A stretch of 64,000 nucleotides of DNA from Thuidium tamariscinum (lineage: Eukaryota; Streptophyta; Bryopsida; Hypnales; Thuidiaceae): positions 18,842,053 to 18,906,052 of the forward strand of contig OX344750.2 in NCBI GenBank assembly GCA_947034885.2, given 5' to 3'. Shown here piece after piece: positions 15,495-63,734 of this stretch. The notes beneath the pieces are model-generated. The model saw nothing but the letters and a program-made list of their open reading frames with translations, was not told where the DNA came from and did no database searches. A program made the translations under genes and the position numbers. The first letter of the stretch is position 1; each line of letters begins with the position of its first letter.

Positions 15495-16696
15495 CAGCCC
15501 TTTTTTTTGGGTGATTTGGTGCGAGATTGCACCATTCCAAAATAAATGTCTACTTTTTGCTAGATAAAAGTAATCTTTCTTCGCCAGACTTTTTTCATTT
15601 GTGTTCAAAATATAGATGAAATTGCCAATTTTGGATGAAAAAGTGCATGGATATGACTGAAAAGTGTTTTTTTATCAAAAAGATGGATGGATGGAGATAT
15701 ACAATGCTTCGCCAAATTTTAACCCCTAAAGGACCACGGCCGTTTTTCAACCCAAAACCATTCAAAATTGTCATTTCTGCTCCATTCATCCATGAAAAAC
15801 AAAAAAACTAAATTTTTAGAATCTAACCATAGGATCTTGTACTTTACTTAACTAAGATCATGTGGTGAAAATTTCATGAAGTTTGACCGTATAGATAGGA
15901 AGATATGAGCATTCAAAGTTCGAAAACAAAGTTTTCTTAAACTCTAGTTTGCAACTTCAAATGACTTTGTCCTCCATTTATGTAATTTTTTTGCACTACA
16001 GACCTTGAATTTAAATTTTTTTCTATTGAGAAATTGAGCTAAGAGCTTAGGGAAAAAAATTCACAAAATAAAGACTTCTTTTTCATTCCTTAAAAAATTA
16101 TCAAGTAGATGTAGGTCCAAGTTTGAAAGAAAAACTAAATTGAAAATATCTCATAGATGGAATTGAAACACAATAATCCCAATGGTGAGATTGTTCTAGC
16201 AAACAAAATCAACCTTGTCCAACAATTTTTTTTGAAAAATTGTGAAAATTGCATTCACAAATGAATCCTATAAGTTATTTTTTCAAGAAGATGCTTAGAT
16301 TGCCCGAAAAACAAGATTGTTCATAACTTTCACATTACTAATCCAAATGGAATGAATCAAAGCTTCACTTGTAGACAAAAATAAAATCTATAAGAAAAAA
16401 AAATTAATTTTTTAATTTTGAAGTTTTTGTAGATTTTTTTTTCTGCCCAGCGACATGAAAATTATGTTTAAGATGGCATAACTTTTGCTCCCGGTCACCA
16501 ATTGAAAAAAAATTTATATTCCCACAGAGCTAATCAGTTTTTCTATTTTATGTGAAAATTTCAAGAAAATTCATTAAAAATTGAAGTCACAAGTGCGTGC
16601 CCGAATTCTTAAAGTCCCCCGAGGGGACTCTTGGTCCTTTAGGGGTTAAGTGGTCGCCATCTTGGCACTTTCTCAAAAACCAAAAAAAAAGGGCTG
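15495..16696. mobile_element. Non-autonomous hAT element carrying a nested TTAA element
   Basis: Ends are CAGCCCTTTTTTTTGG and its complement CCAAAAAAAAAGGGCTG. Flanks CTATTTAG (15,487-15,494) and CTACTTAG (16,697-16,704) are an 8-bp duplication with one mismatch, as hAT elements make. The right end inward (CAGCCCTTTTTTTTT, TTTTTGAGAAAGTGCCA, ATGGCGAC) closely parallels the left end of the 7-kb hAT at 29,090. The element itself is only about 270 bp; the rest is the nested TTAA element at 15,719-16,649. Confidence 0.8.
15719..16649. mobile_element. TTAA-flanked (piggyBac-like) MITE, copy P1
   Basis: TTAA lies at both ends, with inverted termini CCCCTAAAGGACCA. Same family as 22,185-23,097 and 27,771-28,685, but in opposite orientation. 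No open frame of note. Confidence 0.75.
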
Positions 16697-16708
16697 CTAC
16701 TTAGTGTA

Positions 16709-17301
16709 AGGTAGGTGGCTTGAAAATAGACCCTCTTCTTTAGATGGTCCTATACGGAGGCATGTAATGGACAGTCAATGGTTCCAAAATGGATTGCCAA
16801 TAACTGTCAGTGCATAATTAAGACTTATTCTATGTTGCTTCATACTTTGTCAATAGATGGAATTAGAGCCAAGGAGGTCCATTTCAAAGACAGGGTATGT
16901 TCACTTAATTTTTTTGAATGAGAATTGATTGCCCAATTAACTTCTTCCAAATGTTAAAATACTGTAAAATTTGTTTAAGTTTTAGTAAGATCGCATTTAG
17001 GAACATCATGTATTATTTTTTTGATGCAGCACTGCAGATTTGAAGTCAAGTCATATCGTTTTTCAAAGCACATGTGCATGGTTTTTGTAAGGCCTACGGG
17101 TCAGGAAAAGATACATATCCCAGAATTCTTTGAAAATTCATAAGTAATTCATAAGTGCTCCGAAAAATATGAAACCACTTGGGTTAGATTCCTCATCAAT
17201 TCCTCTTTAAGAGAAAAATAAGTGAAAAACAATTTTGAGCATCTGAAACCCATCAAAAAGGCCAACAGCCCTTAAAGGGTCGCTTTTTGAGCCGGCTACC
17301 T
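16709..17301. mobile_element. TA-flanked MITE, family A relative (copy 3)
   Basis: Starts AGGTAGGTGGCTTGAAAA after TA and ends TTTTTGAGCCGGCTACCT before TA. Interior diverged from copy 1 but contains the family's AAAATATGAAACCACTT tract. 593 bp, no coding capacity. Confidence 0.75.
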
Positions 17302-17303
17302 TA

Positions 17304-17620
17304 GATGATTTATTAACAGCGGTAATTGCATATCATACTGACAAACATTTATGCACCGAAATTGCAGCATCATCAAGCATTTTCAGTTGTTGCCTTTGAA
17401 CTTCTGAAGAGCCAGTGAAGACTGAAGCTCAGGGAATCATTATGGGTGACGCGGAGCCTGTCATGTCCAGCATAATAAACTTATCTAAAAATGCAGGGTT
17501 GTCATAATTTTCCAATAAATTTCCATCCAGTAATCGACTGCAAAAATGTTGGCTACTACCGTACCAGTGAGTGTTGTACTGCACAGGTTTTTTATTTTGT
17601 TGTTTTTTACACAAATGAAA
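17304..17620. other. Spacer without recognised content
   Basis: Short unique-looking stretch between two MITEs. No gene or repeat seen. Confidence 0.45.
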
Positions 17621-17891
17621 CGTGGGTACACCTAAAATTGCACCTCACCTAAAAGTGCCATCTATAGTTGCTGTACATTTCTGAATTCCATTATGTACCT
17701 ATTTGGATGGAGTGCTTTTAGAAACAGACTTTGAACCTTAATAATTTTTGCATACTGTATCCAAATGCTGCATTTTTTGGTGCATTGGAACGTGCTTTCA
17801 CTTGCCAAGAAGACTATATGAAAATTTGATCAAACCAGTAATAGTTACTAGACACAGTTCCAAAAAGTGGCACTTTTAGGTGTACCCACCT
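17621..17891. mobile_element. TA-type MITE, family N
   Basis: Palindromic ends: GTGGGTACACCTAAAATTG and CACTTTTAGGTGTACCCACCT, then TA. The ends resemble those of the MITE at 48,048-48,320 (GGTACACCC), but the centre differs apart from a shared CTGTATCCAAATGC-type phrase. Confidence 0.65.
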
Positions 17892-17956
17892 TAGGAGAGG
17901 GCTCTAAAACAGTGTGGGGCATTTTCAATTGTTCAATGGGAGGTTGTGATATGGAT

Positions 17957-18595
17957 AAGGTAGAACCATCTATACCTGATCACTTAAGCAATTCTCGAAC
18001 AAGTTACAGGAGAGGTACCCAATGGCACGGTTGCACCAATGTCGTCCATTTCTAAGTCATTCATTCTAGAACAGAAATGTAGCGGGATTGTAGATTGCTT
18101 ATTGTTTTAGGTCAAAAGAAATAAGCCATGTACTACCTACCTACATTTATAGCCTGAAATGATTGTATGCTGTAGAAATGAACGGCATTGGGTATAGGTG
18201 TGCCATTGGGTGCCTCTCCCTTATGAGGAATACGAGGTCATGTAAATTTTCTTGTGTAGAAAGATAGGGAATGTGGGGATTGCAAATTTTTCATAATTTT
18301 ATTTCCAAAACTGAATTACTATGTTTTTTGGAAGCCAAAAAGTGCTTTGAACCTATAGCCAATGTTTAGAATCTTCCAATTCAGATCATAGTTGAGACTA
18401 CTTTCCTACTTGGTACTTTTCACACACTTTATGACACTTTGGGACATGTGTCATGACCTTATTAGTCCCAATTTTGAAAATGGGGCAAAAGTATATTCCA
18501 AGCTTTGATTGGAAATTTCTTCTAGCCTTGGTTGGAAATAGCCACATCCTACAAGTTGGGTATGGAACCCTAGTTGGGAATAGGTGGTTCTACCT
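17957..18595. mobile_element. TA-flanked MITE family M2, nested in family A
   Basis: Starts AGGTAGAACCATCTATACC and ends GGTGGTTCTACCT, with TA at 17,955-17,956 and 18,596-18,597. Matches the intact copy at 51,200-51,611, but is interrupted by the M3 element at 18,007-18,231. Confidence 0.8.
18007..18231. mobile_element. TA-flanked MITE family M3, nested in M2
   Basis: Ends AGGAGAGGTACCCAATGGC and GCCATTGGGTGCCTCTCCCT, flanked by TA. Interior (GAAATGTAGCGGGA, CTACCTACCTACATTTATAG) is nearly the same as 50,920-51,139. It is the innermost of three nested levels. Confidence 0.8.
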
Positions 18596-19145
18596 TACCT
18601 CATTGTAGAAAAATGGCCTCTTGATGACATCAGAGCATGATAAGATTTGGTTTGTACTTCTTCAATGGATAGTTTAAGAGCCACAATGGGTCCGTTCCTA
18701 ACTAAGTGGATAGGTGTTTACTAATTTTATTCAAAAGAAGAATTGGTAGTTCAACCACCTTCTTACAAATGTTAAAAAATCTAAAATAATGATTGATTCA
18801 AGCATTCATTTCAATTTTAAGAAGGGTTGCATTTAGAAACCATCTCTATTACTTTTTACATGTTCCAACGCTAGTTTTTAAACAAAACCATGTTGCTTTT
18901 AAAACTAAGCATGTGTGGGTTTGCAAGGCCTATGTATCACAAATAGGGCCCTTTGCCAAATTTCGTTTGAAAATTCATAAGTAATTCATCAATGCTTCGA
19001 AAATTATGAAACGACTTGTGTTAGATTCCTCATTTATTTTTCTTTCAGTAAAAATGAGAAAAATATTTCCATCTAAAAAAATACATGATAAAGTTGGACT
19101 AGCCCTTAAATGAGTGGTTTCTAAGCGTTTTACCTTAATGAGCTC

Positions 19146-20717
19146 TTAACCCCTACATGCCTTTGGCCTTTTTTGAGCTTCCAAGAATTTGCTCTAAATT
19201 GAACAGTAAGTTAACATTTTGATAAGTTTTATTATTATTTTTTGAAATATAATTGTACAAATTCAAACTAGACATGCTTAGGATCTCTTAGGAAAAGAAA
19301 ACACAACAATATCACTTATGGATTGAAAGATTATAATGTCCATCCATGAGGGTGTTAGAACTATAAAAGTGAGTTGAAGTCTTTCACTCCTCTTTTCACA
19401 TGTCAAATCTATAAATTTGGTCATCAATAAATATGAAGTTAAAGGGCCTAACATGCTTAACCGCAATCATGTACTGCTTTTCAAAATCCACTCTACAACA
19501 TTCTCTAATGAATTTATAATGTGTGTTTTTCTCCAAGATCTAAAGTATTTGAGGCTCATTTTCAAGAGCCTTCAACACTATGGAAAGTCAAAATTGCAAT
19601 GGACACCCTTACACAAAATCTTGAATAGAAAAATCATAATCAATTATTTTTCAAAATTGGATTTTTGTTGCTTAAACTAGACTTTGAAAAAGAAATCCAA
19701 AAATATAGACTACTAAAAATAGCAAATTGGTTAGGTTTTATGTTCCTTCAAAGTTTTTCAAACACCAAGTTTTGTTGCCTTGAGTATTTAGGGATCAATA
19801 ACTTAAGGTTTTTTACTATGAGTTTTCACCAGAAACTGCTTCAAAACTATCATTTCTAGGACAACTACCAAATTTATGAAAAAAAGTATTTTTGGACAAA
19901 TATAACTATAGGATCTTTTAGTATGGTGGTTTGAAAAGATGTAGAAAAATTCAAAAATTTCCACCTTCTAGATTGCAAGATATTAGTATTTCAAGTGACA
20001 AATTTTTTTTTATCCCTATAAAACCTCAGGCAATTGCACTTCAGAAGGTCACATTTGTATGAAAAAATGTACAAAATGGTTTTAACTCTTTAGATTCATT
20101 CTTTAAGTCAAGTTGACTACATGCTTGAAAATTTTCAAATTAGTTGAAATTGTACAACATGTAGGAAAAAAAGATAGTAAGTAGAAAGGAGTAGAAAATG
20201 ATTCAAAATACTAAATTATTAATAATGTATTTATAGAATTGAAAAATGTCAATACCAATGTTTGAAATGTTATAATAAAAAATCTACACCAAATGTTTTT
20301 TTTTTTTTTTTCAAATTATTAAAAATTGAATTAAATAAAAGACTTCAAAAAACTACCTACAAACTAAAAACCCCATAACTTTCATCTCATTAATCAAAAT
20401 GAAATGATTCAAAGCTTTCCATAAACATATGAATTTTAAAAAATAATTTAAAATATTTATTTTCTTAAAAAATGATTTTTGAGGAAGTTTTTTTAGCTAT
20501 CCATGTTGCTTGCCAAGCGATAAAAACTACATATCATACAATAACTTTTGAACCATACTGTCAAAAGTTCTAAAATTTTTGGGTTTTAAAACTACTCCTT
20601 AGGGACATGTTGTATAAAAATTTCAAAGAAAAAAACATAACAAAAAACCCATCTATAGTGAGATGCCCAAAATTGCTATGTTGCCAAAAAAATGTAGTTT
20701 AGTCCATTTGGGGTTAA
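19146..20717. mobile_element. TTAA-flanked (piggyBac-like) element, copy P6
   Basis: TTAA at both ends with CCCCTACATGCCTTTGGCC on the left and the complement of CCCCAAATGGAC on the right. Interior segments near 20,030-20,190 match 63,300-63,520 in reverse orientation. At 1572 bp it is longer than the other copies; small open frames show no transposase features. Confidence 0.65.
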
Positions 20718-22184
20718 ACCAACTTTCTTCTTCAAATGTCTTCTAGGAGGCTTTGAAATTGATATGTGCTAATTGGAGAATGGACTAACAACTATGTCAA
20801 AATATATTAAGGTTTGGTTGATACTTCTTCAATGGTTGGTTTAAGAGCCACAATGGATCCATTACTAACTAAGTGGATAGGTGTCCGGGGATGCTATTTT
20901 GTGAGCCTACCAGCGTGAGCCTATGAGCCTGTGAGCTTGTGAGCCTAGAATTTTTGGTGAAATTTTTAGTGATTTTTAGGGCATGGACCTATTACCATGC
21001 TTTAAGAATTTTGGATTTTTATATATAATACCCCCCTCATGGGATTTGAAATTTGTGACTTTCAAAATTATTTATTTATTTTTATTTTCAGTTTATTTTC
21101 AGTTTATTTTCAGTTATTTTCAGTTTATTTTCAGTTATTTTCAGTCCTTTTTTTTTCAAATTTTTTTTGCAACTCCATCACCTTCCAAAATCCGTCTTGA
21201 TATTGAAAGGGGTTTGGAGGTAGAGGGCTTTGGAGCTCTCAAAACTTTTTTTTTTTTCATTTTTTTGCAACCCCCTTTTTTTCCAACTATGTTACTAGTT
21301 CATTTTTTTTGCGACTTTTCACCCTTGGAAACCTTCTCTCGGTATCGAGAGATCAATTTCAGGGTGAAAAAGTCGGAAAAAAAAACAAAAAAACTTTTCT
21401 TTTTTCTTTTTTCTTTCCACAACTCCATCACCCTAGAAAACCCCTTGTTGGATTCTAGATTTTGAACCTCAAAAAAAAATTCAAAAATTCAAATTTTTCT
21501 TGGAAGGTATTGAGAGGCCCTTTGGAGATAGTAGGCTTTGAAAATTTAAAATACATTAATCACATTTCCATGGTCATAGGTCCACAATTATAAAGCTGAA
21601 ATTTTACTCTAAATAGATTTTTTTTAAATGACTTCACTTTTTTTTTCTCTTGGCTTAAAAAATTCACAGTTTTTTTTGGTTAATTCTCTGGGCTCACAAA
21701 ACCTATGCTCATGGCTCACAAGCTCATGCTTTTAGGCTCACAAACTAGCGTCGTTGGATAGGTGTCCATCAAATTTTTTCAAAATAAGAATTGGGAGCCC
21801 AAATACCTTCTTCCATACTAAAAAAAATCTAAAATAAGAATTCATTCAAGCTTCCATTTAAGTTTTATTCAAGGTTGCATTTTTAAAAAATTCTATTACT
21901 TTTTACATGCTATAATGCTTGTTTTTGGTAAAGCGATATATTTTTTCAAACCATGTGTGTGAGGGGTTTGTAAAGGCTACAAGTCAAGATTAGGCCCTTT
22001 TAGCATATTTCTCTGGAAATTCATAACTATTTCATATATGCTCCAAAAAATATGAAACCACTTGTATTGGATTTTGCTTCAATTTGTCTTGAAGTGAAAA
22101 ATAAGGGAAAATAATTTGCACATCTTGAATACCATCAAAAAGGCCGACTAACCCTTAAAAGATTGCATTGAGAGCACCTCACCT
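20718..22184. mobile_element. TA-flanked MITE, family A (copy 6), split by a fold-back element
   Basis: The family A interior (TTAAGAGCCACAATGG, ACTAAGTGGATAGGTGTC) is interrupted at 20,886, resumes with TGGATAGGTGTCC at 21,755, and runs to about 22,184 where a TTAA element begins. Confidence 0.65.
20887..21754. mobile_element. Fold-back / MULE-like element (FB1)
   Basis: The inverted arms contain GCTA(G/T)TTTGTGAGCCTA followed by repeats of TGTGAGCC and CATGAGC. The element is bounded by a direct repeat of host sequence, TGGATAGGTGTCC (20,874-20,886 and 21,755-21,767), of up to 13 bp. That is long for a target duplication, so the exact length (perhaps 9-12) is open. The interior is T-rich low-complexity sequence, with a TTTATTTTCAG tandem run at about 21,085-21,145. 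The 160-codon open frame at 20,983-21,465 is mostly phenylalanine from this T-richness and is not called. Confidence 0.65.
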
Positions 22185-23097
22185 TAACCCCTAAAGGACC
22201 ATTGTCCCCTCGGAGGACAAAATGGATTTTGGGCAGGTTCCTATGACTTCAATTTTTGATGAAACCTTTAGAAACTTTCTCACAAGATAGAAAAAATTGA
22301 TTAGCTTCATGGAAATGTAATCTTTATTTCAATTAATGACTAGGAGCAAAAGTTATATCACAAAAAGCCCAAATTTTCATTTGGCAAGCAAAAATATTTT
22401 TTTGGAAAAAGTCAAAATTTACTTTATTTTTTTTTCTGAAATAATATATTTTTGCCTACATGTGAAGCTTTCATTCATTCTATTTGGACTTATAATGAGA
22501 AAGTTATAGACAATCTTGTTTCTTAGGCAATCTAAACATCTTCTTGAAAAAATAACTTGTAGGATTCATTTTTGAATGCAATTTTCACAATTTAAAAAAA
22601 AAATTGTTGGACAAGATTATGTTTACTTGCTAGAACAATACCACCATTGGGATTTAATTCCATCTTATAGTTATTAACCATTTAGTTTTTCTTTCAATCT
22701 TAGACCTATGTCTAGTTAACAATTTTTTAAAGAATAAAAATCAAGTGTTTTTGTGTGAATTTTTTAGTCCTACCCTCAACTCAATTTTTTAACACAAAAA
22801 TTAAAAATTCAAGTTCTACAATGCAATTCATTTTTACAAATGGTGGTCAAAGCCATTTGAAATTGCAAACCACAATTCAAAAAAACTTGTATTTCCAATT
22901 TTGAATGCTCATAGCTTCCAATCTATATGGTCAAACTTCATGAAATTTTTACCACATGATCTTAGTAAAGTTAAGTACAAGATCCTATGGTTAGATTCTT
23001 AAAAAAATGTTTTTTTGTTTTCTTGGATGAATGCAATAGAAATGGCAGTTTTAAGAGGTTTTTGATAAGAAAATGGCCATGGTCCTTTAGGGTTTAA
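22185..23097. mobile_element. TTAA-flanked (piggyBac-like) MITE, copy P2
   Basis: TTAA at both ends, left terminus CCCCTAAAGGACCATTG, right terminus the complement of (C)CCTAAAGGACCATGG. Same family as P1, reversed. 913 bp, non-coding. Confidence 0.75.
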
Positions 23098-23861: not shown

Positions 23862-24821
23862 TATGCCCTTTGAACTTCAGAATTTGATAACTAATTCTAG
23901 AGAGCTCCAAAAAATATGAAACAACTTGGGTTAGATGCCTATTCAAGCTGTCTTTCAAGGAAAATTCTCTGAAAAATATTTCAAGATGCTTGACCTGCCC
24001 AAAATTCTGTTCCAGCCCTTAGATGGTCGGTTTCTGGACCTCCTCCCATAGAGTGTAACTAGTTGCAATGCTTTTAGTGACACATTTTTGGGTGCCTACT
24101 ATACTAGTACAAGTGAAAATGTTTGGATGAAGTAGACTTACTTTTTTATACCCAAAAATTATTGAGTTGCAAGGCTAGCTAAGTTGTTTTTTTCCAAATG
24201 TAAAGTTGTGTGATTTCACTATTTCATCACTTGAGGCAAAGTTCCATGTTGATTTTTTGAGGCATTGAAATATTGTATGATATTGGTGGCTATGTATTGT
24301 GAGTTTCATACATAGTTTGAAGACATTTATTGCAAACATGAAGTGGTATAATTTTTTGAAAATTTGAAATTTATTACAAGTTATTTAGTAGATTTAGAGG
24401 TAGTTTAACAAGAATTTGGCATCATTCATGGAAAAAAAAGTAGCTTACAAGGCTTTTATCTAAACTACATTTTTTTTAAAAAGAAATTCTACATCGCAAA
24501 TATAAAGCCTAACTAGCTATCTACAATAGACTTGCATACAACAAAATACACATAGATGCTCAATATAATCAATATTTGGAATTTGGAATTTTTCAATCAA
24601 GAAAAAATAAACACATACTTTTTAAGAAAATTCACAATTCAACATTAGAAGTCTAAGTACACATTAAACCTATACACAACAAAATACTCTCAAACTTTCA
24701 ACATTAGAATGTTGATATGAAAATGAACTGATCATAAAAAACCTAGGCAAGTACATTTTTGAAATTCCAAATGACCATGCAACATAACAAGCCAAGGGTC
24801 ATTGCGCAAGAAACCACCGTA
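23862..24821. other. AT-rich spacer with a decayed family A end
   Basis: Around 23,880-24,050 the phrase AAAAAATATGAAACAACTTG and a GACCTCCTCCCAT terminus resemble the end of family A elements. The rest shows no feature. Confidence 0.45.
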
Positions 24822-25044
24822 GCTAGTATGTGAGCACAGAAAGTGTGAGCCTATGAGCTTAGAATCTATACACCTATAGCATAGGTGTCTATATTATAGA
24901 TACTTCAATGGTTATAGTGTATCTATGTTTTAAACATCTATATTATAGTTGTTTATGTTATAAACACCTTCAATGAGTGTAGAATACTTACTTATACTTA
25001 GGCTCAAGGCTCATAGGTTTAAACTTCTATACTCACATACTAGC
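24822..25044. mobile_element. Fold-back repeat FB2 (left arm of an inverted pair)
   Basis: Starts GCTAGTATGTGAGC and ends CTCACATACTAGC. Its interior is dense in TATA/CACC palindromes (ACACCTATAGCATAGGTGT). The whole 223 bp is repeated in reverse at 26,468-26,691. Confidence 0.75.
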
Positions 25045-25164
25045 ATTGTTGTGTTTCCTCAATTCTAGCTACAAAAAAATATTTAAGATGTAAGTTGTCA
25101 TAAGCACTTGTTAGCACTCAAATTTGAATACTACAATGCTTAAGAGATGAGCCATGTTTAGGTG

Positions 25165-25470
25165 TCACTGCCTTTGAACAAAGATGCCCTTATGAGCAAC
25201 AAACCATGTTCCTGTTTAGCCATGAAGGCTAATTTGGAGCAAATCATGACTCCACCCTATATGTGCGATTCATTTACAAGGCTCTGACAAATATTTGGTG
25301 CAAATCAAATATTGCTTTAAACCTTTCCCAAATACTTTAAGAAGAGTGAATTGGCAATGGTTTTGGCACTAAGCTTGGTTGAGGATGAAAGGACATTTTT
25401 GACAATTGGCATTGAGAAATCCAAGATGAGAAATAAACTCAAAGATCACCTTGCCTTATGTGTCCAATGA
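25165..25470 (+). pseudogene. hAT transposase C-terminal fragment, decayed
   Basis: The plus strand reads TPPYMCDSFTRL, a TGA where Trp is expected, then QIFGANQILL, and after a frame change ELAMVLALSLVEDERTFL and SKMRNKLKDHLALCVQ before a stop. These are the hAT dimerisation-domain motifs seen in the 7-kb element (PPFDLNPLTRLW, EIAIVQVLGSVEDERCFS, KNKLRNALDNHLECVV). It has at least one nonsense change and one frame break and is clearly dead. It sits between the inverted fold-back repeats FB2 and FB3. The protein is more diverged from the 7-kb copy than a simple deletion derivative would be, so it is probably an older insertion. Confidence 0.75.
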
Positions 25471-25734
25471 AAATTGAATGTTTTGGATTCTTGGCACCTT
25501 CCTACTTTTTGAAGATATGCAAGAATGGTTTTTGATTAATGCTAGATATGGCCTCAAAGGCCTCTAGATAGCTTCAAATCAAGTTTAGGAAGCACATTAC
25601 AAGGTGCTTTATTTTTTAGTAGAGTTCTTGCTTCACATGTTGATAATGTCATGAGTATGCATGCATCTTAATTTGTGTAAGGGATGTAGGGTTGGTTTTA
25701 GATTTATTTTGATATTTTACAATTTTACCTTTGC

Positions 25735-26440
25735 ATCATTGCAAGAAACACTGGTCCTATTTCTTGTCACAATGTGGATCATTTTTTGGTTGTCCACTAT
25801 AACTTTTGGAGCTTAAGTCCAATGAACATGAAATTTTTAATGAACATACCTAACTTGAAGGTATTTATATCCCTTATTTTTTTGAAATTCAATACAAAAA
25901 ATCATTTTATATTTAAAAATCATTTTATACCTTGTTGAGCTATCACAAGGTATTATTTACAATTATCACTATGTTATGAGTGCCCAAATTTAATGCTTTG
26001 TAGACAAAAGTTTCATGGTCTATTTGCATAGGTGTAAAACATACAAATTCCAAATGAAATCTCAAAATATGTTATTTTATGTCCTCCACATGAGTACAAA
26101 TTATATCTCGTTGCGTACAATTTTTGAACATTGAAGATGGTTCTAAGATTATTCTTTTGGTGAAATCTCGCTAAAGAAAACTCTTTCCAAATGGAAAATT
26201 TATAGTTTAAAAAAATTTGATTTTCCTTTTTTTACAAATTAAAATGTAAAAGTACCAATTTTCATGAGATTTTGCACTTTTCTAGTTCTCCTACTTAAAG
26301 ATTTTTTCTATGCTTTTTGTTTCTATAGTAACTTTTCCTTAAAGTTGTATATATGAAACATATTTTTCACTTTTAAAAAAAAAATTCTAATTTTAAGGCC
26401 CTCCCAAAGAAAAAAAGAGTACTATGAAAACGCTACACTT
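25735..26440. mobile_element. Truncated copy of element F
   Basis: Begins ATTGCAAGAAACACTGGTCC and continues collinearly with the reverse complement of 42,323-43,049 (GTCACA, CATAACTTTTG-type phrase, GTTCTCCTACTTA). The distal terminus is missing. Confidence 0.55.
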
Positions 26441-26467
26441 TTTAGATGGTGCTTTTTGCACAATGGC

Positions 26468-26691
26468 GCTAGTATGTGAGTATAGAAGTTTTAACCTATG
26501 AGCCTTGAGCCTAAGTATAAATAGGTATCCTACACTCATTGAAGGTGTTTATAACATAAACACCTATAATATAGATATTTAGAACATAGATACAATATAA
26601 CCATTGAAGTGTCTATAATATAGACACTTATACTATAGGTATATAGAATTCTAGGCTCACAAGCTTATACTTTCTATGTTCACATACTAGC
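26468..26691. mobile_element. Fold-back repeat FB3 (right arm of an inverted pair)
   Basis: GCTAGTATGTGAG at the left, CACATACTAGC at the right. It is the reverse complement of FB2 over its length. The pair encloses 1.4 kb including a hAT transposase fragment. Confidence 0.75.
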
Positions 26692-27437
26692 AATCGTGCC
26701 CTTTGTACAACCTCAAGGCTAATCAATTAAAACACAAGCTACATAAATTGAAGTGACATAATCAGATTAGAATATACATAAATATATTATAAGACATAAA
26801 TCTGATTATGGACTATGACACAAATACAAACATATTTGAAAAGAAAGGACAAAGTCTAAATTACAATCAACTATATTATGTTTATGCAACAAATTAGATT
26901 TGAAGAGTTCATAGTTTGGGACTCACCAATACATTGTTCTTTCACCAATTTTGCTATCTTTGTCTATTTGGTTTTTGTTACTTTAGTCTTATCTTTTGTT
27001 ATAAAGTTGCTTCTTACAACTAAGATATTTGTGGAAACATTAGATGATTGAAAGGTGGAGAGTTCTACTTCACCATTGGAAGAGTTCACATATGGAATCC
27101 ACGTCATTCAAATTGACTCTAAGGTTGTGCCTTCCAATCCCTTTGAAATAGTCACGGAAATAGTAAAGTGGTTTGATTTAAAAGGTTGCAAACTCGTCAA
27201 TTTACATACATTGAAACTCTATGATATATTATCTCATAGCTACAACCAAATCATAGATGTATGCATCATGTGCTTGGGTATACTTGTTAACTCTAATAAT
27301 GTCTTTAAATCAAAAAGGGAATCAAAGAAAACCTTATCAAAAGCTCTTTTTATCCTTGTTTAATGCTATCTTGACAATAAGTGTACTATGTGTGCTCAAG
27401 ATCCTTTGAGGCAACAACAATATGCTACACTTTCAAA
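26692..27437. other. AT-rich spacer
   Basis: The plus-strand 102-codon frame at 27,055-27,363 has no domain I can name, but it adjoins a reversed hAT relic and may be transposon debris. Confidence 0.4.
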
Positions 27438-27566: not shown

Positions 27567-27770
27567 AGCTAAAACTATGACCCTAGAAATGGAAATAACC
27601 ACAAAAGTGTCATCTTAAATGCCCAAAAATGGACACACAATATATAGGGAGCAAACTTTTTGCTAATTTTATTCCAATACCATGCCTAAATCCATTACAA
27701 AAATCTAGACCGTACAAAAGGCCACAAGACTCTTGCAGTAGCAATGCAATTACAATTTTTTTAACCCCTA

Positions 27771-28685
27771 AAAGCCCATTATTCCCTCAGGGGACAATTT
27801 GGAGTTTGGGCAGGTTTTGTAGACCTCAATTTTTAGTGAATCTTTTTGAATTGTTTCATAAGATAGTAAAATTGATTAGCTTTGTGGGAATATAATTTCT
27901 ATTTCAATTAGTGCGCGGGAGAAAAAGTTATACCACAAAAAGCCAAAATTTTAATTCAGCAGGCAAAAAAATAAATCCACAAAAACTTGAAATTTCATTT
28001 TTTTTTCATTTTTTGATCTTATATATTTTATTTTTGTCTACGTTTGAAGCTTTGATTAATTCCATTTGGATTAGTTATGTGAAATCTATGAACAATCTTG
28101 TTTTTCAGGCAGTTTGAGGATCTTCTTGAAAAAATAACTTATAGGATTTGTTTCTAGATGCAATTTTCACATTTTAATAAATTTGCTTGATAAGGTTAAT
28201 TTTTTTTGCTAAAACAATCTCACCATTGGGATTATTGTGTTTCAATCTCATCTTAGAGCTATTAACAATTTCATTTTTCTTTCAATCTTAAACCTACCTC
28301 TACTTAATAATTTCTTAAAAAATCAAAATCAAGCATTTAAAAAAAAAAATTCCTAGACTTTTAAGTCAATTCTTAAACACAAAATTTTGATAATTCAAAG
28401 TCCATAGTGCAAAAGATTCAACAAATGGCAATCAAAGTCATCTGAAATTGCAGGACAATGTTTCAAGAAACTATGTTTTTCAACTTTGAATGCTCATATC
28501 TTCCAATCTATAGAGTCAAACTTCATGAAGTTTTTACCATATGACTTCAGACAAACAAAGTACAAGATCCTACTATTAGATTCTATAAACACACTTTCTT
28601 TTATTCTTTTAGATGAGTGCAACAAAAATGGTAGTTTTGAGTGGTTTTTGACAAAAAAAATGGCCTTGGGCCTTTAGGGGTTAAA
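27771..28685. mobile_element. TTAA-flanked (piggyBac-like) MITE, copy P3
   Basis: TTAA at both ends, with CCCCTAAAAGCCCATTATT and the complement of CCCCTAAAGGCCCAAGG. 915 bp, same orientation as P2. Confidence 0.75.
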
Positions 28686-32000: not shown

Positions 32001-32359
32001 GCGGGAAATGAAACTCAGTGGTGAATCTGCGGAGTCTGTCAAGGACCCCGAAGGCCAAGAGGCGTTGCAGTGAGATAGAGGTTAATGGTGACTTGAGGAT
32101 CAATTGGGGACAGGCACATGAATTGCAGAATTTGACAACAAACTTCGCCGATTTTGGACAAGCGCAGGCACCATGAATTTGAAGCGTCCAGAGAGCACAG
32201 ACCTTCTTCCACGGCACACAGGTACATAGCACAATTATGTGCACTTGAACCTTATTTCCTTTACATAGTTGAATTCATAAAATCAAATATAACAGCTCTA
32301 TATTATCGACATAGTTATCTAATTTCAAAACTCAATCCACTGATTACGTGATCGAGTTT

Positions 32360-47259: not shown

Positions 47260-48047
47260 GATCGAAGCTTGGACCGGGATCGGTGAACAGTGAAAGCGAA
47301 GAAACGGACTCAGTCGATCAATCTCCCAAGTTTCTAACGAGGTTGCCTAACTTCTTTATCCTGCAGGGATATGATGGAAGCATGAACTGCGAAGTACGTA
47401 CAGTACTGGAGTGCTGGCGGCCGGACTGTACATTCAAGTGGAATGACCGAATCCGTCGCGATTCTGTTATGAGCGATCTAAGTTAAGTTATCGCACGATC
47501 GAGCTGTCTGACAAGCTTGCGCCCGTACCGGCAGGCAGGGCTCTCGATTGAGCTCCAGATTGAAGCTAGCCGATGCAGCAGACAGTGTGACACCACTTGA
47601 TTGTTAATTTCCTGTACCAGAAACAAACAAACAAAACGCTCGAAGGCTTGAAAGACGCGACTGGGACTTTCTCGACCAAACAAATGATTATGCAGAGAGT
47701 GGAGAAGACTTGATGGGTGGGGTGGATTTGTGGGGGAAGAAGCTCGACGGAGAGATGGGAAAAGCCGGGTGGGAGGGGAGAAATTCAAGGTTCTCCCTTT
47801 CATGGACTTCGGAGGAAAGTAAGCAACTTGCGTACCTTAACGTGCAGAGTTTCGGTTGGGTGCTGTTTTCCACAGCTAGTCAGGGATTCTATTTTCAATA
47901 GATCTGAGATAGGAAGCTTCTGCTGTCAGCGTTTGGAGTTTGGAATCGAACAGGAAGGCTTGGAATGCTTGCATGGGGCAAAGTTACAATGGAGGGATAA
48001 CTGCGTGTAAGAAACCCGTGTTTTGTTTGACACATTTTTATGTCATA
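47260..48047. promoter_or_regulatory. Upstream region of the pathogen-related gene
   Basis: Moderate GC content. Includes a palindromic GTACGTACAGTAC tract at about 47,395. Plus-strand frames at 47,710-48,010 have no recognised domain. No unambiguous TATA box or W-box cluster seen. Confidence 0.35.
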
Positions 48048-48320: not shown

Positions 48321-48322
48321 TA

Positions 48323-50345: not shown

Positions 50346-50406
50346 GCTTCTATCAATGCAAAACCTCCTCTCCTTTGATCACGAGCCCAATAAAATCCCA
50401 TTCAAC

Positions 50407-50917: not shown

Positions 50918-50919
50918 TA

Positions 50920-51139: not shown

Positions 51140-51199
51140 TATAAAAGATCCATTTCATTTGTGCCCCACCTCCCCTACACCAAGAACAATAGGATTCTA

Positions 51200-51611
51200 A
51201 GGTAGAACCACCTGTAACCAACCATTTAAGGTATTCTAGACATGATCTGGTGTAGTGTAAGATATAACAAATATTTTCAAAGGTGCAAAGATAAAAATGA
51301 TGGGGATTGCAAAAACTTTGGGAATTGTATCATGTGCATTGAAATTACTATGAATTTTGGAAGGCAAAAAGTGTGCGAGACCACATGCCAACTTGTGGAG
51401 TCTTGTAATTTCAATCACACAAAATATTGTTTTTTTAGTCATTCCTTCCTACTTTCTTGCATGCTACTTTGGGACATGTGCCATGAACTTTTAGTCCCAA
51501 CTTTTAAAATGATAAAAATAGAAATAAAACATTCTAGCTTTGGCCTAGTTGGAAATACGTCCATCAACAAGTTGGCTATGGATTGCTAGTTGGTCATAGG
51601 TGGTTCTACCT
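51200..51611. mobile_element. TA-flanked MITE family M2, intact
   Basis: Ends AGGTAGAACCACCTGTAACC and the complement (TAGGTGGTTCTACCT), TA on both sides. 412 bp, no coding capacity. It is the reference for the copies near 13.8, 18.0-18.6 and 52.6 kb. Confidence 0.8.
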
Positions 51612-51692
51612 TAGAGAAAGGCTGGGAATTTAGTTGCAAATGAGAATGAAAAATTGCATCAATAGGAGATGTAAAAAAACTAAATGGTTGCT

Positions 51693-53399
51693 TTAACCCC
51701 CTAAAAGGAGGGTGTGGTCTCCACGGAAATGAGAGATTTTGTCACCATGTGCATCATGACCAAAAGATCAATTAGAATCACATTGCAAGTAAACCTCATC
51801 TAGAAAATCATCTCCTTTCCACACAAATTCTAAGGATAAAAGATTGTCCTTCCCTTTTAAACCTGATAAAAGAAGATGCTTTATCATTCATTCAACACAA
51901 AATATCCTCAACATCCATTCTAGGTTAATCTTTGAAGGACAAACCTCGGTAACTGTGAAATCTTCCATTTTCATATCATGGAAATCACTTGTTCAAAAAC
52001 ATTCAAAAAGAGTTATTGCAAGTCAAAGTACTGTCTATAGAAGATCCCTCTTTTCTATATAAAATTTTGAAGATGAATAGTTGTACTTTTGTCTCACAAA
52101 GAAAGATTCTTTGTCATCTATCAGATGCCAAAGGTTGATATTGATGTTCAAGGGTTAAATTAAATGTTTGTACTAGGACTTGGGTCCATTGTAGAATCTT
52201 GGTGCCATCAATAAGTCCATAGATGCACCTATTAAGGACCATACATAAGTAGTTGTGGAAACCCAAAGCAACAAATTAGATACTTTTATGAAGCACAAGA
52301 GATTGGACAACACAATATCCACCCACATGCCGATGACAACTTTGTGCAAATCTGCTTCTTTGCTTTGTATTTAAGTTAGTTCCACTTGGATTTAGGTCAT
52401 TTTTTAGATGTCACCAATGTCTTCATATCATTTTTAGGTAGGGCTAAGGTAGGTGACCACTCATTTTTCTTACCAAAGCCCCATATCCAACCTATAAGAT
52501 GTAGATACATATTTCCAATCAAGGTTGGAAGAAATTTTCAACCAAAGTTTAGAATGTATTTTTTTTTCCTTTTCAAGATTGGCACTACTAAGGTCATGAC
52601 ACATGCTTTAAAGTAGGCAAGAAAGTATGGAAAGTAGTTCATCAATGATTAGAACTAGAAAAGTCTAGATATTGGACATGGGTTCAAACCAACTCTAATT
52701 TGGCTTCCTAAATTCATAGTAATTTTAGTTCAAGCAATGAAATTACCAAATTCTTGACAATTTCCATCATTTCTATCTTTGCACCTCCGAATATATTTGC
52801 TTCATCTTACACTACTCTAGGTCATGTCCATAGTTGTTTATTTGATCAGTTAATAGGATGCTAAATCCTACCATAGAAGGTGGGCTAGCATGGTAAATTT
52901 GGAATTCTCCAAATAAAAGTGAAAAAAGTTGTCTATTTTTTACTTGGTCTAGGGTATCTTCAAGACCTCTCTACTCTAATTTGGGGTCTCTAATTGCAAA
53001 TATGAATTTAGAAAATGCCAAAAATATTATTTATAAAAAATAAAAATTTCTATATTTTTCCTTGTGGTAAATCCACCCTATTGGGCCCACCTTCAATGGT
53101 AGGATTTAATGTCCTCCAATTAGTTACCAGTGGGTCTTTGATACCTTGTAGGGTTGAAAAAATTGAAAGGTTGCTTTGCTTGAACTCTATAATGTTGTTG
53201 AGGATACTAAATATCCAATATGTGAAAGAATTCTTGTATATAAGACAAAACTGCAATTAATCATCCTTGAAATTTTGTGCACATAGGCAAAGTCATGAAG
53301 AGTGATTTTGTCAACAACAATTTTAAAATTAATTTTTTTTTAAAAAGTAAATTATTCCCATGGTTTCCACGGAGACCAGCTCATCCTTACAGAGGTTAA
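51693..53399. mobile_element. TTAA-flanked (piggyBac-like) element, copy P8
   Basis: TTAA at both ends, and extended inverted termini sharing GGTCTCC(A/G)TGGAAA about 30 bp in. 1707 bp. A reversed M2-like MITE at about 52,460-52,880 is nested within it. The termini are more diverged (CCCCCTAAAAGG, CCTCTGTAAGG) than in the other copies, so assignment to the same family is tentative. Confidence 0.55.
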
Positions 53400-57100: not shown

Positions 57101-57490
57101 TAATTTGCTCAAATTTAGATTACTTTGTTGTACACACATTTATGATGCATCACTCCTCTAAATATTTGTTGCCTACACCTATTGATTAATTTGAATATTT
57201 TTTCAATTGCATGAAAGAAACCAACATTGTAATGGACAAATTGTCTAATGGATGACGTAATGTGAAAGAAGTGCTATTGCAACCCCCGTTGCTTTTCATT
57301 CCCTAAAATAGTAACAATGCAACATAACAAGGGGTGAGTGGCCATAGTCACAAAAAACAAAATGTGGGGTTGACTTTGCTATTGTCATTAGTTCATTTTC
57401 AATGGGAAACATTACAATTCTTGAGCTTTAGAATGAACAACAATGAGGTTCACTCTAATGAAGTCACTTAGCATCTTGCAATGAGAATCA
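54130..57490. other. AT-rich spacer
   Basis: At 54,205-54,250 there is a short CCTTGATCATGGCAA tandem. 54,370-54,600 resembles 10,260-10,560. Otherwise no gene or transposon end recognised. Confidence 0.45.
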
Positions 57491-57492
57491 TA

Positions 57493-58108
57493 GAAGAAGG
57501 CTCCAAAATGGTGCATACTTTTCGAACTCTCCAATAGGAGGCTATGAAATGGATACTAGATTGTAGGAAAATGGATTCTTGATTACATCAAAGCATGATA
57601 AGAGTTGTTTTTTTACTTCTGCAATGGATGGCTTAAGATCCAAAAATCCAAAATAGGTTCATTCCTAACTAAGTGGATAGGTGTCTACTAATTTTATTCA
57701 AAATAAGAATTGGTAGTCCAACTACTACCTTTTTACAAATGTTAAAAGATCTAAAATAATGATTAATTCAAGCATTCATTTCAAATTTAGAAAAGATCAC
57801 ATTTTGAAACCATCTTGATTATTTTTCACATGTTGCAATATTAGTTTTTGAACAAAGCCATACTCTTTTCCAAACCAAGCATGTGTGGGTTTTCAAGGCC
57901 TACAAATCACAAATAGGGCCCTATGCAAGATTTTGTTTGAAAATTCATAAGTAATTCATAAATGCTCTAAAAATTATGAAACAACTTGTGTAAGATTCAT
58001 CATCTATTTTTCTTTGACTAAAAAATGAGCTAAAAATATTCCCATATAAGAAAATATATGAAAAAGATGGACCAAACCTTAAATGAGCAGTTTCTAAACC
58101 TCTTACTT
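57493..58108. mobile_element. TA-flanked MITE, family A (copy 5)
   Basis: Starts GAAGAAGGCTCCAAAATGG and ends AAACCTCTTACTT, with TA on both sides. Interior ACTAAGTGGATAGGTGTC and AAACCAAGCATGTGTGGG as in copies 1 and 2. Confidence 0.75.
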
Positions 58109-58324
58109 TAATTCTACAAAACTCCAAAAAATATGAAACAACTTGATTTAGGTGCCAATTCCACTTGACTTTCAAGAAAAAATGTTGAAAATGTTTAAAG
58201 AAGTTTCAGCTATTAGATGGGTACTTTATGGACCTCGTACCTTGGTACCTCTTCTACGGTTGTAGTTTGTTTCTTCCTTGATTGGTCTCATTAGAATTTG
58301 TAAGACTGTAATGTATAATTTGCT

Positions 58325-58983
58325 TTAACCCCTAACTGCCCAATGCACCAGAATCTGGTGTTTGCAAAATTTTGAAGTTAAATAAAACCTAACTAATTTG
58401 CTATTTTTAGTAGTTTGTATCTTTGAAAAGTTCTTCTAGAAGTCTAGTTTTAGTGTCAAAAATCCGATCTGGAAAATGAATGATCAATAGTGATTTTTCT
58501 ATACAAGATTTTGTACAAGGGTACCCCTTGCAATCTTGACTTTGTGTAGTGTTGAGAGCTCTTGAAAATGAGCCTCAAATACACTAGATCTTGAAGAAAA
58601 AATCACATTTAAAATTCATTTAAAAAAATTGTAGAATAGATTTTGAAGAGCCGTAAATTGATTGGAGTTGTGCATGTTAGGCCCTTTCACCTCATATTTT
58701 TTTGGTCACCAACTTTTCAGATCTAACTTGCAAAAAGAGGATAAAAACACTTTACAGCACTTTTGCAGTTTTAACACTCTCATGGTCAAACATTATAATC
58801 TTTCACTCCACAAGTGTTATTGTCGTGTTTTCTTTTCCTATGCAATCTCTAACATGTCTAGTTTGAATTTGTACGGTCACAATTCAAAAAAGATTGATAC
58901 AATTTATCAATATGTTGGCATTTTGTTCAACTTAGAGCAAATTCTAAGAAGCTAGAAACAGGCCTTGGGCAGTTAGGGGTTAA
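58325..58983. mobile_element. TTAA-flanked (piggyBac-like) MITE, copy P4
   Basis: TTAA at both ends, inverted termini CCCCTAACTGCCCAA. 659 bp. The interior near 58,665-58,900 resembles 19,270-19,480 of copy P6 in reverse. Confidence 0.75.
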
Positions 58984-59931
58984 GGTACACGGCTTGTAAA
59001 GCAAGCATTTAAGGACTGAGAGGCCTCTGTTGAGAGCGGTGTGCTTGTAGATAGTGCATTCATGATTTTTTTGGACACCTAAGTAAGGACCCGGTATAAG
59101 GTAAGTGGAACGAAATTTTTTGGAGGCAATTAGAATAAATTTTGAATTGAGGAAGAGAAAGGCCGTAGGTATCCATAAGTAAATGCATAGAGGCTACAAC
59201 AATTATGTACAAGCAAGTGACTTTAAATATAATGAGTCAATCCAAAAACGAAAGAGCGTTGAAGTCCGTATCACTCATACAAGTGCAATGGCCGTCTGCA
59301 AGGAAAGAGAAGTGGCATTCAATGCTTGTGAGTTTTGTACATAAAGAAGCCTATATGACAACTAAGAAAATTTCAAAAGAGTATTTCAAAATGAGTTTTT
59401 TTTTTAGAAAATCAATTCTCACCAACTTGGAAAATATGAAGCAACCACTCTATCACGAGCAATTGCATTATGAAGAGCTCAAAATGAGGCATGTGGAACC
59501 AAAAGTGCTGAAAATACATACATTGCTTCATTTTAGGACTTGTTCACAGTGTTTCCTTCGTTGACCTAAGGATGAATGCAACTCATATGCCTGAAAAAAC
59601 TACTGCTAACTTCTTATAACCCTGAACTATCATCCAAATGATGCTAGCGGCTGTCTAGGGTTAACTGAAGTAGCCTCGGTGCAAACTATGGCTAGACCTT
59701 GTTGATCATATACTTGTGTGTCCCAACCGCTTGATTCAAATGCAAGACTGTCATTTCTAAACAAGCCTAGCTGGAAGTAAGGTAGTCTACTCTAAAAGTG
59801 AGCTTTGTCTTAAAATGGCCCCTACAATTGAGGATAAAAAAGCCATCATGTAGTTTTAAGAGGGAACTGTGATTGATAGTAAATGGCCTAAAGAAGAAGT
59901 GAGAGTGCATTAGGTTGTAGTGTGGATTGAT
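58984..59931. other. Spacer with an unassigned open frame
   Basis: A 119-codon plus-strand frame (59,205-59,564) begins with ATG but has no recognised motif, low complexity or splice context. I do not call it a gene. Confidence 0.4.
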
Positions 59932-60741
59932 TTAACCCCTAAATGCCCAAGTCATTTTAAATGTGTTTTGACTATGAAAAAAGTGCATGAGCTTGTAGTC
60001 ATCCCTAGTGAAGCAAGTTAATTTTTTTCCAAAATCTAATCGCATACATATTTAAAGAGCTTGTTTATTAGTAAGTACACAAATTTTGAGTACAAAATTG
60101 CATAGGAGTGGTGAGATTATAACAAGAGAAGAGTACATTTTCTATGTTTAGTATATTGCCTTTTCCCACAATGTTTCTCAAATTTGCATATAAATTTTTT
60201 TGGGGATTGGAGGTGACATAAACAACTATAAAGAGTGTTAGCACACTAAAATGCACTTCTAAGAAATTTAATTTCACATGAAAAGCTATTAATTTCATTA
60301 CACAATCCACCTTGCAATTGTTGAAATGCAATTATTTTTTATATGTAGAAATTGCAAATAACTCCAAATCGATAGTTGTATGTTTAAATTTTCAATGGTG
60401 AATATCATGAAAACAATTTCCTCTTTCCATTGGAACCGTTCTCAAAGCAAATGGACATGTACAATTTCTTAGATCTCAAATCAAGTGAAATTGCATAAAG
60501 CTAGGAAATGAAGTAAAATTGGCAAGCTTTCCACTTCACTTACAGTACATGTATGCCTTTGAAGACCTCTCAATAATCAAATATGTACTTTTTTCAATGA
60601 AAAATGAAAGTTTTTAGTAGTTAACCCTTAAAACTGCTCGAAATTTTTTTTAAACAATCAAAAGAATTTAATTGCCCATTCAGAAATGGGCCTGAAATTT
60701 CAGATCGACCATGAATGGTTGACTAGGGAGTTAGGGGTTAA
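59932..60741. mobile_element. TTAA-flanked (piggyBac-like) MITE, copy P5
   Basis: TTAA at both ends, termini CCCCTAAATGCCCAAG and CCCCTAACTCCCTAG in inverted orientation. 810 bp. Confidence 0.7.
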
Positions 60742-60949
60742 CATGCAATGTGGTCCATTTCAAAAAACTGCAACATATGTACATTAATATATTTAAAATC
60801 AGATTTGGATGGCCAAGAACCACTTAAAACAGTATATAAAATTTAAAATCTTTCTAACTACCATTGGTCACATTAAGAACCCTCCCTTGTGCTTCATAGC
60901 AAGTCAGCAAGCTCCTTCTAGATGTCCCCATCTCTCTTAACAGATTACA

Positions 60950-61177
60950 TGTGTTCACATTTTGTTAAGCCTACAGTCAGAATTAGGCACCTAGGACTGC
61001 AATCTTTGAAAAATCATAACTAATTCAATATTGCTCTGAAAATTATGAAACCACTTTTGTTGCATGCGGCATCCATTTTTCTCTCTCTGAAAAATAAAAA
61101 TAAAAAATTTCTTTCCACAGAAGCCCATGAAAAAATGCAACCAGCCCTTCAATGGTCGCTTTTAGAGCAGACTACCT
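60950..61177. mobile_element. Right half of a family A-like element
   Basis: Contains AAAATTATGAAACCACTT and ends GAGCAGACTACCT before TA, as in the copy at 16,709-17,301. The left end is not recognisable. Confidence 0.55.
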
Positions 61178-61183
61178 TACGTG

Positions 61184-61285
61184 TAACCCACACCTCCTTA
61201 TGTCTAACCCACACCTCCTTATGTCTAACCCACACCTCCTTATGTCTAACCCACGCCTCCTTACGTCTAACCCAAGCCTCCTGCT
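61184..61285. repeat. 21-bp tandem repeat, five copies
   Basis: Unit TAACCCACACCTCCTTATGT plus C, copies starting at 61,184, 61,205, 61,226, 61,247 and 61,268, the last degraded. It starts a few bases after a family A right terminus. Confidence 0.9.
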
Positions 61286-61495
61286 CAAGGATATTCAAGA
61301 ATCAAGACCCTGGAGAGCAAAGGAAGGTTATTCAATTTGAAAGTGACTGAACTTCCAAGGCTTTAGGATATGTATGACGGAGTAAGCTTATTCCGTAATC
61401 AAATTCTACACAAGGTGGCAGACTTTTGCTGCACACAGAACACAAACTTCATGCAACATGTAATTAACATTCGGCAACATTCTGTCTGTACCTAA

Positions 61496-61635
61496 GGGGC
61501 CGTTTCACACTATGGCCGTCCAAGTTGAGATGCCGTCGATTCCACCAATCAGATTTGAGAAACCATGATTTTCACCAATCAGATTTGAGAAAACCATGGC
61601 CTTTGGACTTGGATGGCCATAGTGTGAAACACCCC
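61496..61635. mobile_element. Short PIF/Harbinger-like MITE
   Basis: Inverted ends GGGGCCGTTTCACACTATGG and the complement of GGGGTGTTTCACACTATGG, flanked by TAA at 61,493-61,495 and 61,636-61,638. 140 bp; internal CCAATCAGATTTGAGAAA occurs twice. Confidence 0.75.
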
Positions 61636-61734
61636 TAAGTTTGTGCCTCCCACGTAAGTTACAATGTTCTAGAATGAAGCAAGTTCACTTTGGTGTGATA
61701 GAAGTTTAGCCCAGTTTAGTAAGTTCATGCTTAA

Positions 61735-62080
61735 GAGCATCCCCACCCCAAAGTTGGCCAAATGGCCCACTCAAGGACCACTTGTCAAGTCATCAATGAA
61801 GCCTAGGCCCGGCCAAAAAAATTTGCCCCACCCCAATGCGGCCAATAAGCATGGGGAAACAACCTTTTTCGGATTTCTAGATGCCACATTGTGGATGCCA
61901 ACAAGGCTAAACCTTTTTCAATTCTAAAGTGCCTTGAAAGTAGGAATTAAATACAAAAAATAGAAACAAAATACCAAGCCCAAGCAAATATTCTCCATTT
62001 GGTTGAGCCATCATCAAATTTAGCCAAGCCTGGCTACTTATCTAGTTTGCGTGATATCTTGCATTGGCATAGAGATGCTT
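61735..62080. mobile_element. PIF/Harbinger-like MITE
   Basis: Left end GAGCATCCCCACCCCA resembles the MITE at 8608. The right end is the complement of AAGCATCTCTATGCC. TAA on both sides. 346 bp. Confidence 0.65.
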
Positions 62081-62083
62081 TAA

Positions 62084-62470
62084 GGGAGAAACACCCAATT
62101 CTGCACCTATCCTTAGCGTTGGACCCTAGACTCATCCAATTGCGTTCATAGGCTTCAGTGAATGTGTTTAGTAAATGTGTTCGCCAAATGCTTGATTCTA
62201 ATTTGTTGATGCATTTAAAGGACACATACCAAAATCTAATTGGCTCATTTCTATTTTTAGTAGGGTTCAGATTTGAGTGCACCTACATGATAGTTTTAGT
62301 GGTATAGGGGACCAACACTTTGAAAAATCATAGAAATTACATACAACATCCAAAAAAATGTATTTTTTTTAATATTCAAGATTTTCACTCTCTAACACTA
62401 GAAAAATATAATTTTTACAAAAAGCTCTCTCCAACTATGCTGAATTCCTTACTTGGATGGTTATTTGTTA
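62084..62470. repeat. Dispersed repeat family C (copy 2)
   Basis: Collinear with 15,110-15,480 (AACACCCAATTCTG, GGACCCTAGA, CCAACACTTTGAAAAA, CTATGCTGAATTCCTTA). Confidence 0.6.
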
Positions 62471-62781
62471 CCTACGATGTGGTTAAGTAAATCAAACTCA
62501 CCAACTAATTCACCATCTAAGTTAACCCTGTTTCGAAACTGTTGGTGTAGTGACATGTGAGATTACAAAGTTCATCTCGGTCATTAGCCTCTGAAACTCA
62601 AGCTGTCTTCTCAACTTCAAAAAATTGATCTACAATTTCTTTCTTACTTGATTCTTTACCATTGGCAGCCAGTTCAAGTTAAGCCCCAACTCTGATTCAT
62701 TTGCTTGAGGAATGAATTAACCTAATTGATTGATTTCCAAATTCAATGCTGCACTACTCCATGAAACCCTGCAACATCAAA
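62471..62781. other. Spacer
   Basis: No feature recognised. Confidence 0.4.
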
Positions 62782-63734
62782 TTAATCCTTAAAGCCCTTA
62801 TTAACAGCGTTTTTTGGCAACATAGAAATTTTGGGCAGCTCATTATGAATAAGCTCACTATGAATGGAGTTTTTATTTTTTTTCTTTGAAAATTTTACAA
62901 AACAAGTGTTTGAGGAGTAGTTTTAAGGCCCAACAATTTTCATAACTTTTGACTACATGGTTTTAAAGTTATGGCATGATATGTTGTTTCCTTTGAACTG
63001 CGGGCAGCCTGGGCAGCAAATTTTTTTATTTAAGAATTGTTTTCTTAAGAAATAAAAATTTGAAATATATTTATTAGATTTGTATCTATGTGGAAAGATT
63101 TGAATCATTCCATTTCAATAAATGAGTCAAAAGTTATAAGGAATCTTAGTTTGGGGTAGTTTGTGGGTAGTTATAGAATTTCTACTCTACAAAAAAGTTT
63201 GAAATTCTTTATTTAATTCAATTTTTAATATTTTTGAAAAAAAACTAAAACATTGGGTGAAGATTTTTTATTACAATATTTTAACCATTGGGTTTTTCAT
63301 TTTTCATTTTTATAAACAAATTGTTTACAATTTAGTATTTTCAAGCATTTTCTACTTCTTTCTACTTACTATTTTTTTCCTATATGTTGTACAATTCCAA
63401 ATGATTTGAAATTTTTTGACCATATAGCCAACTTGAATTGTAAAATTAATTCAAAGAGTAACCATCATTTTGAGTATTTTTTCATACAAATGTGACCTTG
63501 TGAAGTGCAACTGCCCAAATTTTTGCAGGGATATAAAAAGGATTCTTGCTAGTTCAAATGTTAATATCTTGCAATCTACATAGTGAAAGTTTCTGAAATT
63601 TTTTTCACATATTTTCAAACTACCTAACTACAAGATCCTACAATTAAATATGTCAAAAAAATTACACTTGTACTAAAAATTACAGTTTTGTAGTGATTTT
63701 GGTGGAAACATAGTCAAAAACCTTTAGGGGTTAA
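62782..63734. mobile_element. TTAA-flanked (piggyBac-like) MITE, copy P7
   Basis: TTAA at both ends, left TCCTTAAAGCCC, right the complement of CCCCTAAAGG. Interior matches copy P6 in reverse. 953 bp. Confidence 0.65.

Follow-up and report, generated by a model that had tools for sequence, protein, structure and literature searches.

Stowaway and Tourist, two kinds of miniature inverted-repeat transposable elements (MITEs) of plants, are short and non-coding and have inverted ends, as do the elements described here, and their targets are 2-bp TA or 3-bp TWA, not TTAA. The piggyBac element of Trichoplusia ni has a C-first terminus, a TTAA target and a terminal inverted repeat (TIR) of a length similar to that found here (~14 bp), and Sola3 is another group with TTAA duplications. 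We analysed a stretch of 64,000 nt of the Thuidium tamariscinum genome (contig OX344750.2, positions 18,842,053 to 18,906,052), hereafter the window, within which all element, repeat and open reading frame (ORF) searches reported below were made. It holds eight well-supported elements and one doubtful one (E5). The eight have paired inverted ends and TTAA flanks, carry unrelated interiors on the same ends and include two abutting elements that share a single TTAA. We consider them probably to be old non-autonomous MITEs that were mobilised in trans at TTAA, most likely by a transposase of the piggyBac superfamily.

As described in the available text of PMC2872659, piggyBac elements generate TTAA duplications and have 12–19 bp TIRs with the terminal motif CC[C/T]T, and moth piggyBac has, in addition, 19-bp subterminal repeats (PMC10140906, in the part available). 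Kolobok elements share the TTAA duplication and are given 5′-RR...YY-3′ termini (PMC9587614, available part). The coral CMITEs of PMC2872659, as far as that text describes them, are like the present elements in their TTAA duplication, 13–14 bp TIR, lack of an ORF, tandem or abutting copies and the existence of an empty allele or site. They differ in length (~100 bp versus 650–950 bp here) and in organization, since the coral families have their interior in common and different TIRs, whereas here unrelated interiors have one TIR. The present ends also begin with CCCCTAA, in contrast to the CC[C/T]T reported there for piggyBac and TTAA-type MITEs, and occur in a plant.

The view of the initial annotation that plants have yielded few reports of piggyBac is only partly right. 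Plant occurrence of piggyBac-like elements is stated in the available portions of PMC8086355 and PMC10140906, PMC4438587, in the portion available, counts piggyBac among the superfamilies present in every group it covered, land plants included, and repeat annotation of the fern Ceratopteris returned 1,230 PiggyBac copies (PMC6890710, likewise in part). The term did not occur in the available text of three other fern-genome papers (PMC9122828, PMC9477723, PMC12868710), and a literature search for claims that piggyBac is absent from plants gave nothing useful. No comparable plant TTAA MITE family was found in the literature searched, in so far as its text was available, with most subscription papers lying outside that search. 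piggyBac in plants is already reported, and the present elements would add to a known kind.

The inverted ends of the eight elements read TTAA-CCCCTAAANGNCCA, or CCCCTAAANGNCC in short form. Column counts over the 16 ends are T16 T15 A15 A16 for the site and C12 C15 C15 C15 T15 A15 A15 A12 for the bases that follow, after which the terminus continues with G/T, G, C/A, C, C/T and A. The conserved terminus thus covers positions 5 to ~18, or ~14 bp beyond the 4-bp TTAA site, within the 12–19 bp range of piggyBac TIRs. TTAA is exact at 14 of the 16 ends, the other two being one shared TCAA, and the outermost base (position 1, read inwards) is T in all 16. The two positions that follow TTAA both hold pyrimidines in 14/16 ends, with consensus termini CCCC...GGGG, and the consensus start CCCCT contains the CCCT of the CC[C/T]T motif one base further in. 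By site, polarity and TIR length the elements fit piggyBac, with the motif shifted by one base. The same columns bear on MITEs of Kolobok or Sola3 type, which would use the same target site. Kolobok ends are purine-first, as the 5′-RR...YY-3′ formula in the available part of PMC9587614 indicates, and the pyrimidine-first pair found here has the wrong polarity for them; we rejected Kolobok for this reason and regard an origin from either group as extremely unlikely.

The ends and their pairing are far above chance. The 8-base end TTAACCCC occurs seven times and its complement six, 13 occurrences that include the one at 51693. Sixty random sequences of window length drawn from a first-order Markov model held 0.85 on average and never more than 3, and they contained no end pair at a spacing of 200–2000 bp. 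CCCCTAA occurs 15 times and is directly preceded by TTAA at 10 of these places, while TTAA starts at 0.7% of window positions; one of the five places lacking it is again 51693, where the extra C displaces it. Terminus positions 5–18 of all ends except the left end of E2b were used to build a weight matrix that ignores TTAA; it recovered all 15 of these ends together with 48 further sites above 7.5 bits. Among the 48, one is the end of E4 itself read in a shifted register, and none has TTAA or any NTAA before it.

These scans help to weigh a different target size. The same junctions could have been produced by Tc1/mariner-like MITEs that duplicate TA and end in ACCCCTAA..., if the outer T and A were mere target preference, since T-TA-A with ACCCC...GGGGT ends spells the same letters as TTAA with CCCC...GGGG, and existing junctions therefore cannot separate a TA from a TTAA duplication. 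Another repeat family of the window, F, moreover has TA at both sides in two of the four copies inspected. Against this stand the T at the outermost position of every end, though most elements were located by that pattern, and the lack of a preceding NTAA both at the five CCCCTAA places without TTAA and at the 48 other matrix sites. Read from the sequence, the outermost T and the lack of NTAA-preceded terminus-like sites would favour a 4-bp target over TA, and we judge a Tc1/mariner-like origin very unlikely.

The elements fall into four families. Family A comprises E1 (15719–16649, plus strand, 931 bp), which has TTAACCCCTAAAGGACCA at both ends and 77% identity to E3 and E4; E3 (22184–23097, minus strand, 914 bp), recognized by its TIRs; and E4 (27761–28684, minus strand, 924 bp), recognized by its TIRs and its homology to E1 and E3. 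Family B consists of E2b (19795–20717, plus strand, 923 bp) and its homolog E8 (62782–63734, minus strand, 953 bp), which are 76% identical; E8 has a good end at 63734 and a decayed one, TTAATCCTTAAAGCCC, at 62782. Family C is formed by E2a (19146–19798, plus strand, 653 bp), whose decayed right end reads TTGATCCCTAAATAC, and its end-to-end homolog E6 (58325–58983, minus strand, 659 bp), at 79% identity; the two ends of E6 agree in their 19 terminal bases, TTAA included (TTAACCCCTAACTGCCCAA). E7 (59932–60741, plus strand, 810 bp), with TIRs, is the sole copy of family D; no homolog of it occurs in the window, and its support comes from its two ends and its setting. E2a and E2b abut, and one decayed TTAA, now TCAA, at 19795–19798 is common to both.

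Seven of the eight positions in the initial annotation correspond to real elements, and their starts hold except for two, 22185 (true start 22184, 1 base away) and 27771 (true start 27761, 10 bases away). The position 19146 proved to be two abutting elements; a single element spanning 19146–20717 was rejected, as its first 653 bp match 58983–58325 end to end and the remainder matches 63734–62782. The position 51693 is unsupported. Here the doubtful E5 (51693–52158, strand unassigned) has a left end, TTAACCCCCTAA, with one surplus C, and its nearest right end, at 52158, matches the terminal repeat poorly and is not convincing. A BLAST search found no homolog of it in the window, and the profile search gave a partial match only (53446–53220, E 3.5e-05); lacking a good partner end and a BLAST homolog, E5 was rejected as a confirmed element. 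It is enclosed by ~250-bp inverted repeats (51198–52852, 68%), with related copies at 13712–14084 and 18246–18597.

Families A and B are related over most of their length, with profile matches down to E 3.8e-37. Between C or D and the other families no match fell below E 0.09, and the two strongest at known elements sit at the ends. On this profile comparison the interiors of A/B, C and D are unrelated and the ends shared, which bears out the earlier claim that at least three internal sequence classes use the same ends. The elements are 653–953 bp long and have a GC content of 25–33%, in a repeat-rich window of 36%; this setting and the NdhS frame described below support a land-plant source of the DNA. 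No ORF longer than 100 aa was found in any of the eight, and the longest stop-free stretch is 100 codons, in E2a; in E2a and E6 the longest open stretches are on strands that do not correspond, and they are therefore not a conserved gene. The elements are MITE-like in being short and non-coding, in having TIRs and in occurring as two or three related copies in families A, B and C, D being single in the window. Copies within a family differ by 21–24%, a divergence that points to old insertions and probably inactive copies.

From these features a mechanism may be proposed. A transposase would have recognized the ~14-bp terminus CCCCTAAANGNCCA, and insertion at TTAA would have duplicated those four bases. 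The elements, MITE-like at 650–950 bp and with no coding capacity, would have been moved in trans by cut-and-paste. The source of the enzyme would most likely be the piggyBac superfamily, judged by the site and the pyrimidine-first ends, and a former autonomous partner may have supplied it in this plant.

The initial annotation had proposed a check for empty sites with a single TTAA, and within the window this check gave one clear and one weaker case. The clear one is the target of E1, whose flanks, joined with one TTAA, align without a gap and across the junction to the reverse strand of 50486–50418 (57/69 identical), an unoccupied copy of the site. The other concerns E7, which appears to sit within a copy of repeat F (~59777–61180) that has matching 31-bp inverted ends. 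Rejoined with one TTAA, its flanks score 155.8 bits against a profile of five uninterrupted F copies, over positions 8–616, and the right flank alone scores 139.0 bits. The profile alignment places the E7 TTAA on a TTAA of the F consensus, a position that reads TTAA in five of the six other F copies and TTAG in one. E3 occupies the join between two repeats, one ending in ..CACCTTA and the next beginning with TAAGGTG.., and this join itself spells TTAA. As an empty site for E3 we did not count 17908, where a gapped alignment (126/180) spans the junction by 16 bases and the site reads CCTAAGG. E4, E6, E8 and the E2 pair had no junction-spanning match in the window at E up to 0.01. The 14/16 exact TTAA sites and these two unoccupied sites, one clear and one weaker, support the earlier claim that elements with short, C-first inverted ends inserted at TTAA.

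Several observations weigh against the piggyBac interpretation or the evidence for the site. The first four bases are CCCC instead of CC[C/T]T. No transposase family was found among the 111 stop-to-stop window ORFs of ≥75 aa scanned with Pfam at E 0.1, a scan that genes broken into shorter pieces would escape; for these ORFs the earlier statement that the window contains no transposase is supported. Site 10172, terminus-like and without TTAA, scores 14.7 bits, above three true ends, and the terminus alone is therefore not enough to recognize an element. Most elements were located via their TTAA ends, which makes the TTAA count in part circular, and the unoccupied E1 site has a single TGAA where TTAA is expected. 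For E7, joins with two TTAA (154.5 bits) or none (152.8 bits) differ little in score from the join with one, the left flank alone fails to match the F profile (E 0.34), a MAFFT alignment placed the TTAA of E7 roughly a dozen bases from that of the F consensus, and BLAST returned no window match spanning the junction. Because of the last three points, E7 appears to be a weaker, alignment-dependent case than E1.

The CCCC terminus, one base off the canonical motif given in the available text of PMC2872659, and the ORF scan without a transposase would also suit an enzyme from a different superfamily, whether already described or not, that came to use TTAA and C-first ends independently. Such an enzyme seems unlikely to us, given that the end polarity is right for piggyBac and that the sources on TTAA-duplicating groups name, in their available parts, only piggyBac (PMC2872659) or piggyBac and Kolobok (PMC9587614). 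We retain the piggyBac assignment, which the TTAA site and the C-first polarity support, while the CCCC start and the lack of any transposase seen with these ends speak against it. The elements are filed as putative piggyBac/TTAA-type MITEs, and their membership is provisional because of that ORF result and that one-base offset. Should this plant carry a piggyBac-type transposase with such ends, the superfamily would have been really and repeatedly active in a land plant, beyond annotation hits, and a native plant counterpart of the tool now borrowed from a moth would be possible; if the enzyme is of another kind, TTAA insertion evolved more often than thought.

Small palindromes centred 27–29 bases from the tip were noticed at one end each of E1 (AGTCCCCTCGGGGGACT) and E6 (CACCAGAATCTGGTG); E7 has them at both ends, E8 has no such dyad, and the letters are unrelated between elements. 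When one member per family was tested with position left free, 25 of 2000 random sets equalled or exceeded the observed value (P = 0.0125). Dyad scores in the sister copies were 5 in E3, 4 in E4, 3 in E2a and 3 or less in E2b. The dyad was picked out post hoc, and some sister copies show it weakly; it is therefore a lead only. A more specific proposal, which we put forward tentatively and consider doubtful, is a land-plant transposase lineage, either divergent piggyBac or unrelated, that would combine strict targeting of TTAA with a CCCCTAAA terminus and would have moved three or more unrelated MITE interiors by way of one end bearing a small subterminal dyad.

Several of the TTAA elements lie within or beside copies of repeat family F, which occurs at 9063–9669, 14079–15012, 16702–17303, 18595–19138, 20718–22186, 57481–58110 and 59775–61180. 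Without insertions the copies are roughly 550–650 bp long, and their ends resemble AGGTAGG..GGCTC / GAGCC..CTACCT. One F copy contains an insertion at 20885–21768 with a 13-base flanking direct repeat, TGGATAGGTGTCC; the insertion is rich in GTGAGCC motifs and perhaps a Mutator-type element. Directly past the end of another F copy lies a tandem repeat (61180–61290) with a unit of ~21 bases (CTAACCCACACCTCCTTATGT). An element at 24815–26698 has ~240-bp inverted arms, 89% identical, and ends near CTAGTATGTGAGC, and no clear target duplication was seen for it.

On the minus strand, 29578–35345 holds several separate reading frames that we take to resemble a broken hAT-type transposase; these frames had no significant Pfam match, and a rerun at E 10 on four ORFs gave the same weak matches. 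The exon-like frames on the minus strand at 45305–47346 presumably resemble a plant pathogen-related protein, and the two frames scanned had no Pfam match. A tRNA scan of the window found 0 genes and Rfam at gathering scores 0 matches. Two of the 111 window ORFs matched a TLC domain (TRAM_LAG1_CLN8, best 3.7e-07). Finally, an unbroken reading frame at 3891–4748 encodes subunit S of the chloroplast NDH complex, NdhS (Pfam 1.3e-27), whose long N-terminal region lies outside the stretch matched by solved chains (PDB search: three sequences, Tlr0636 and Ssl0352, which we take to be cyanobacterial).

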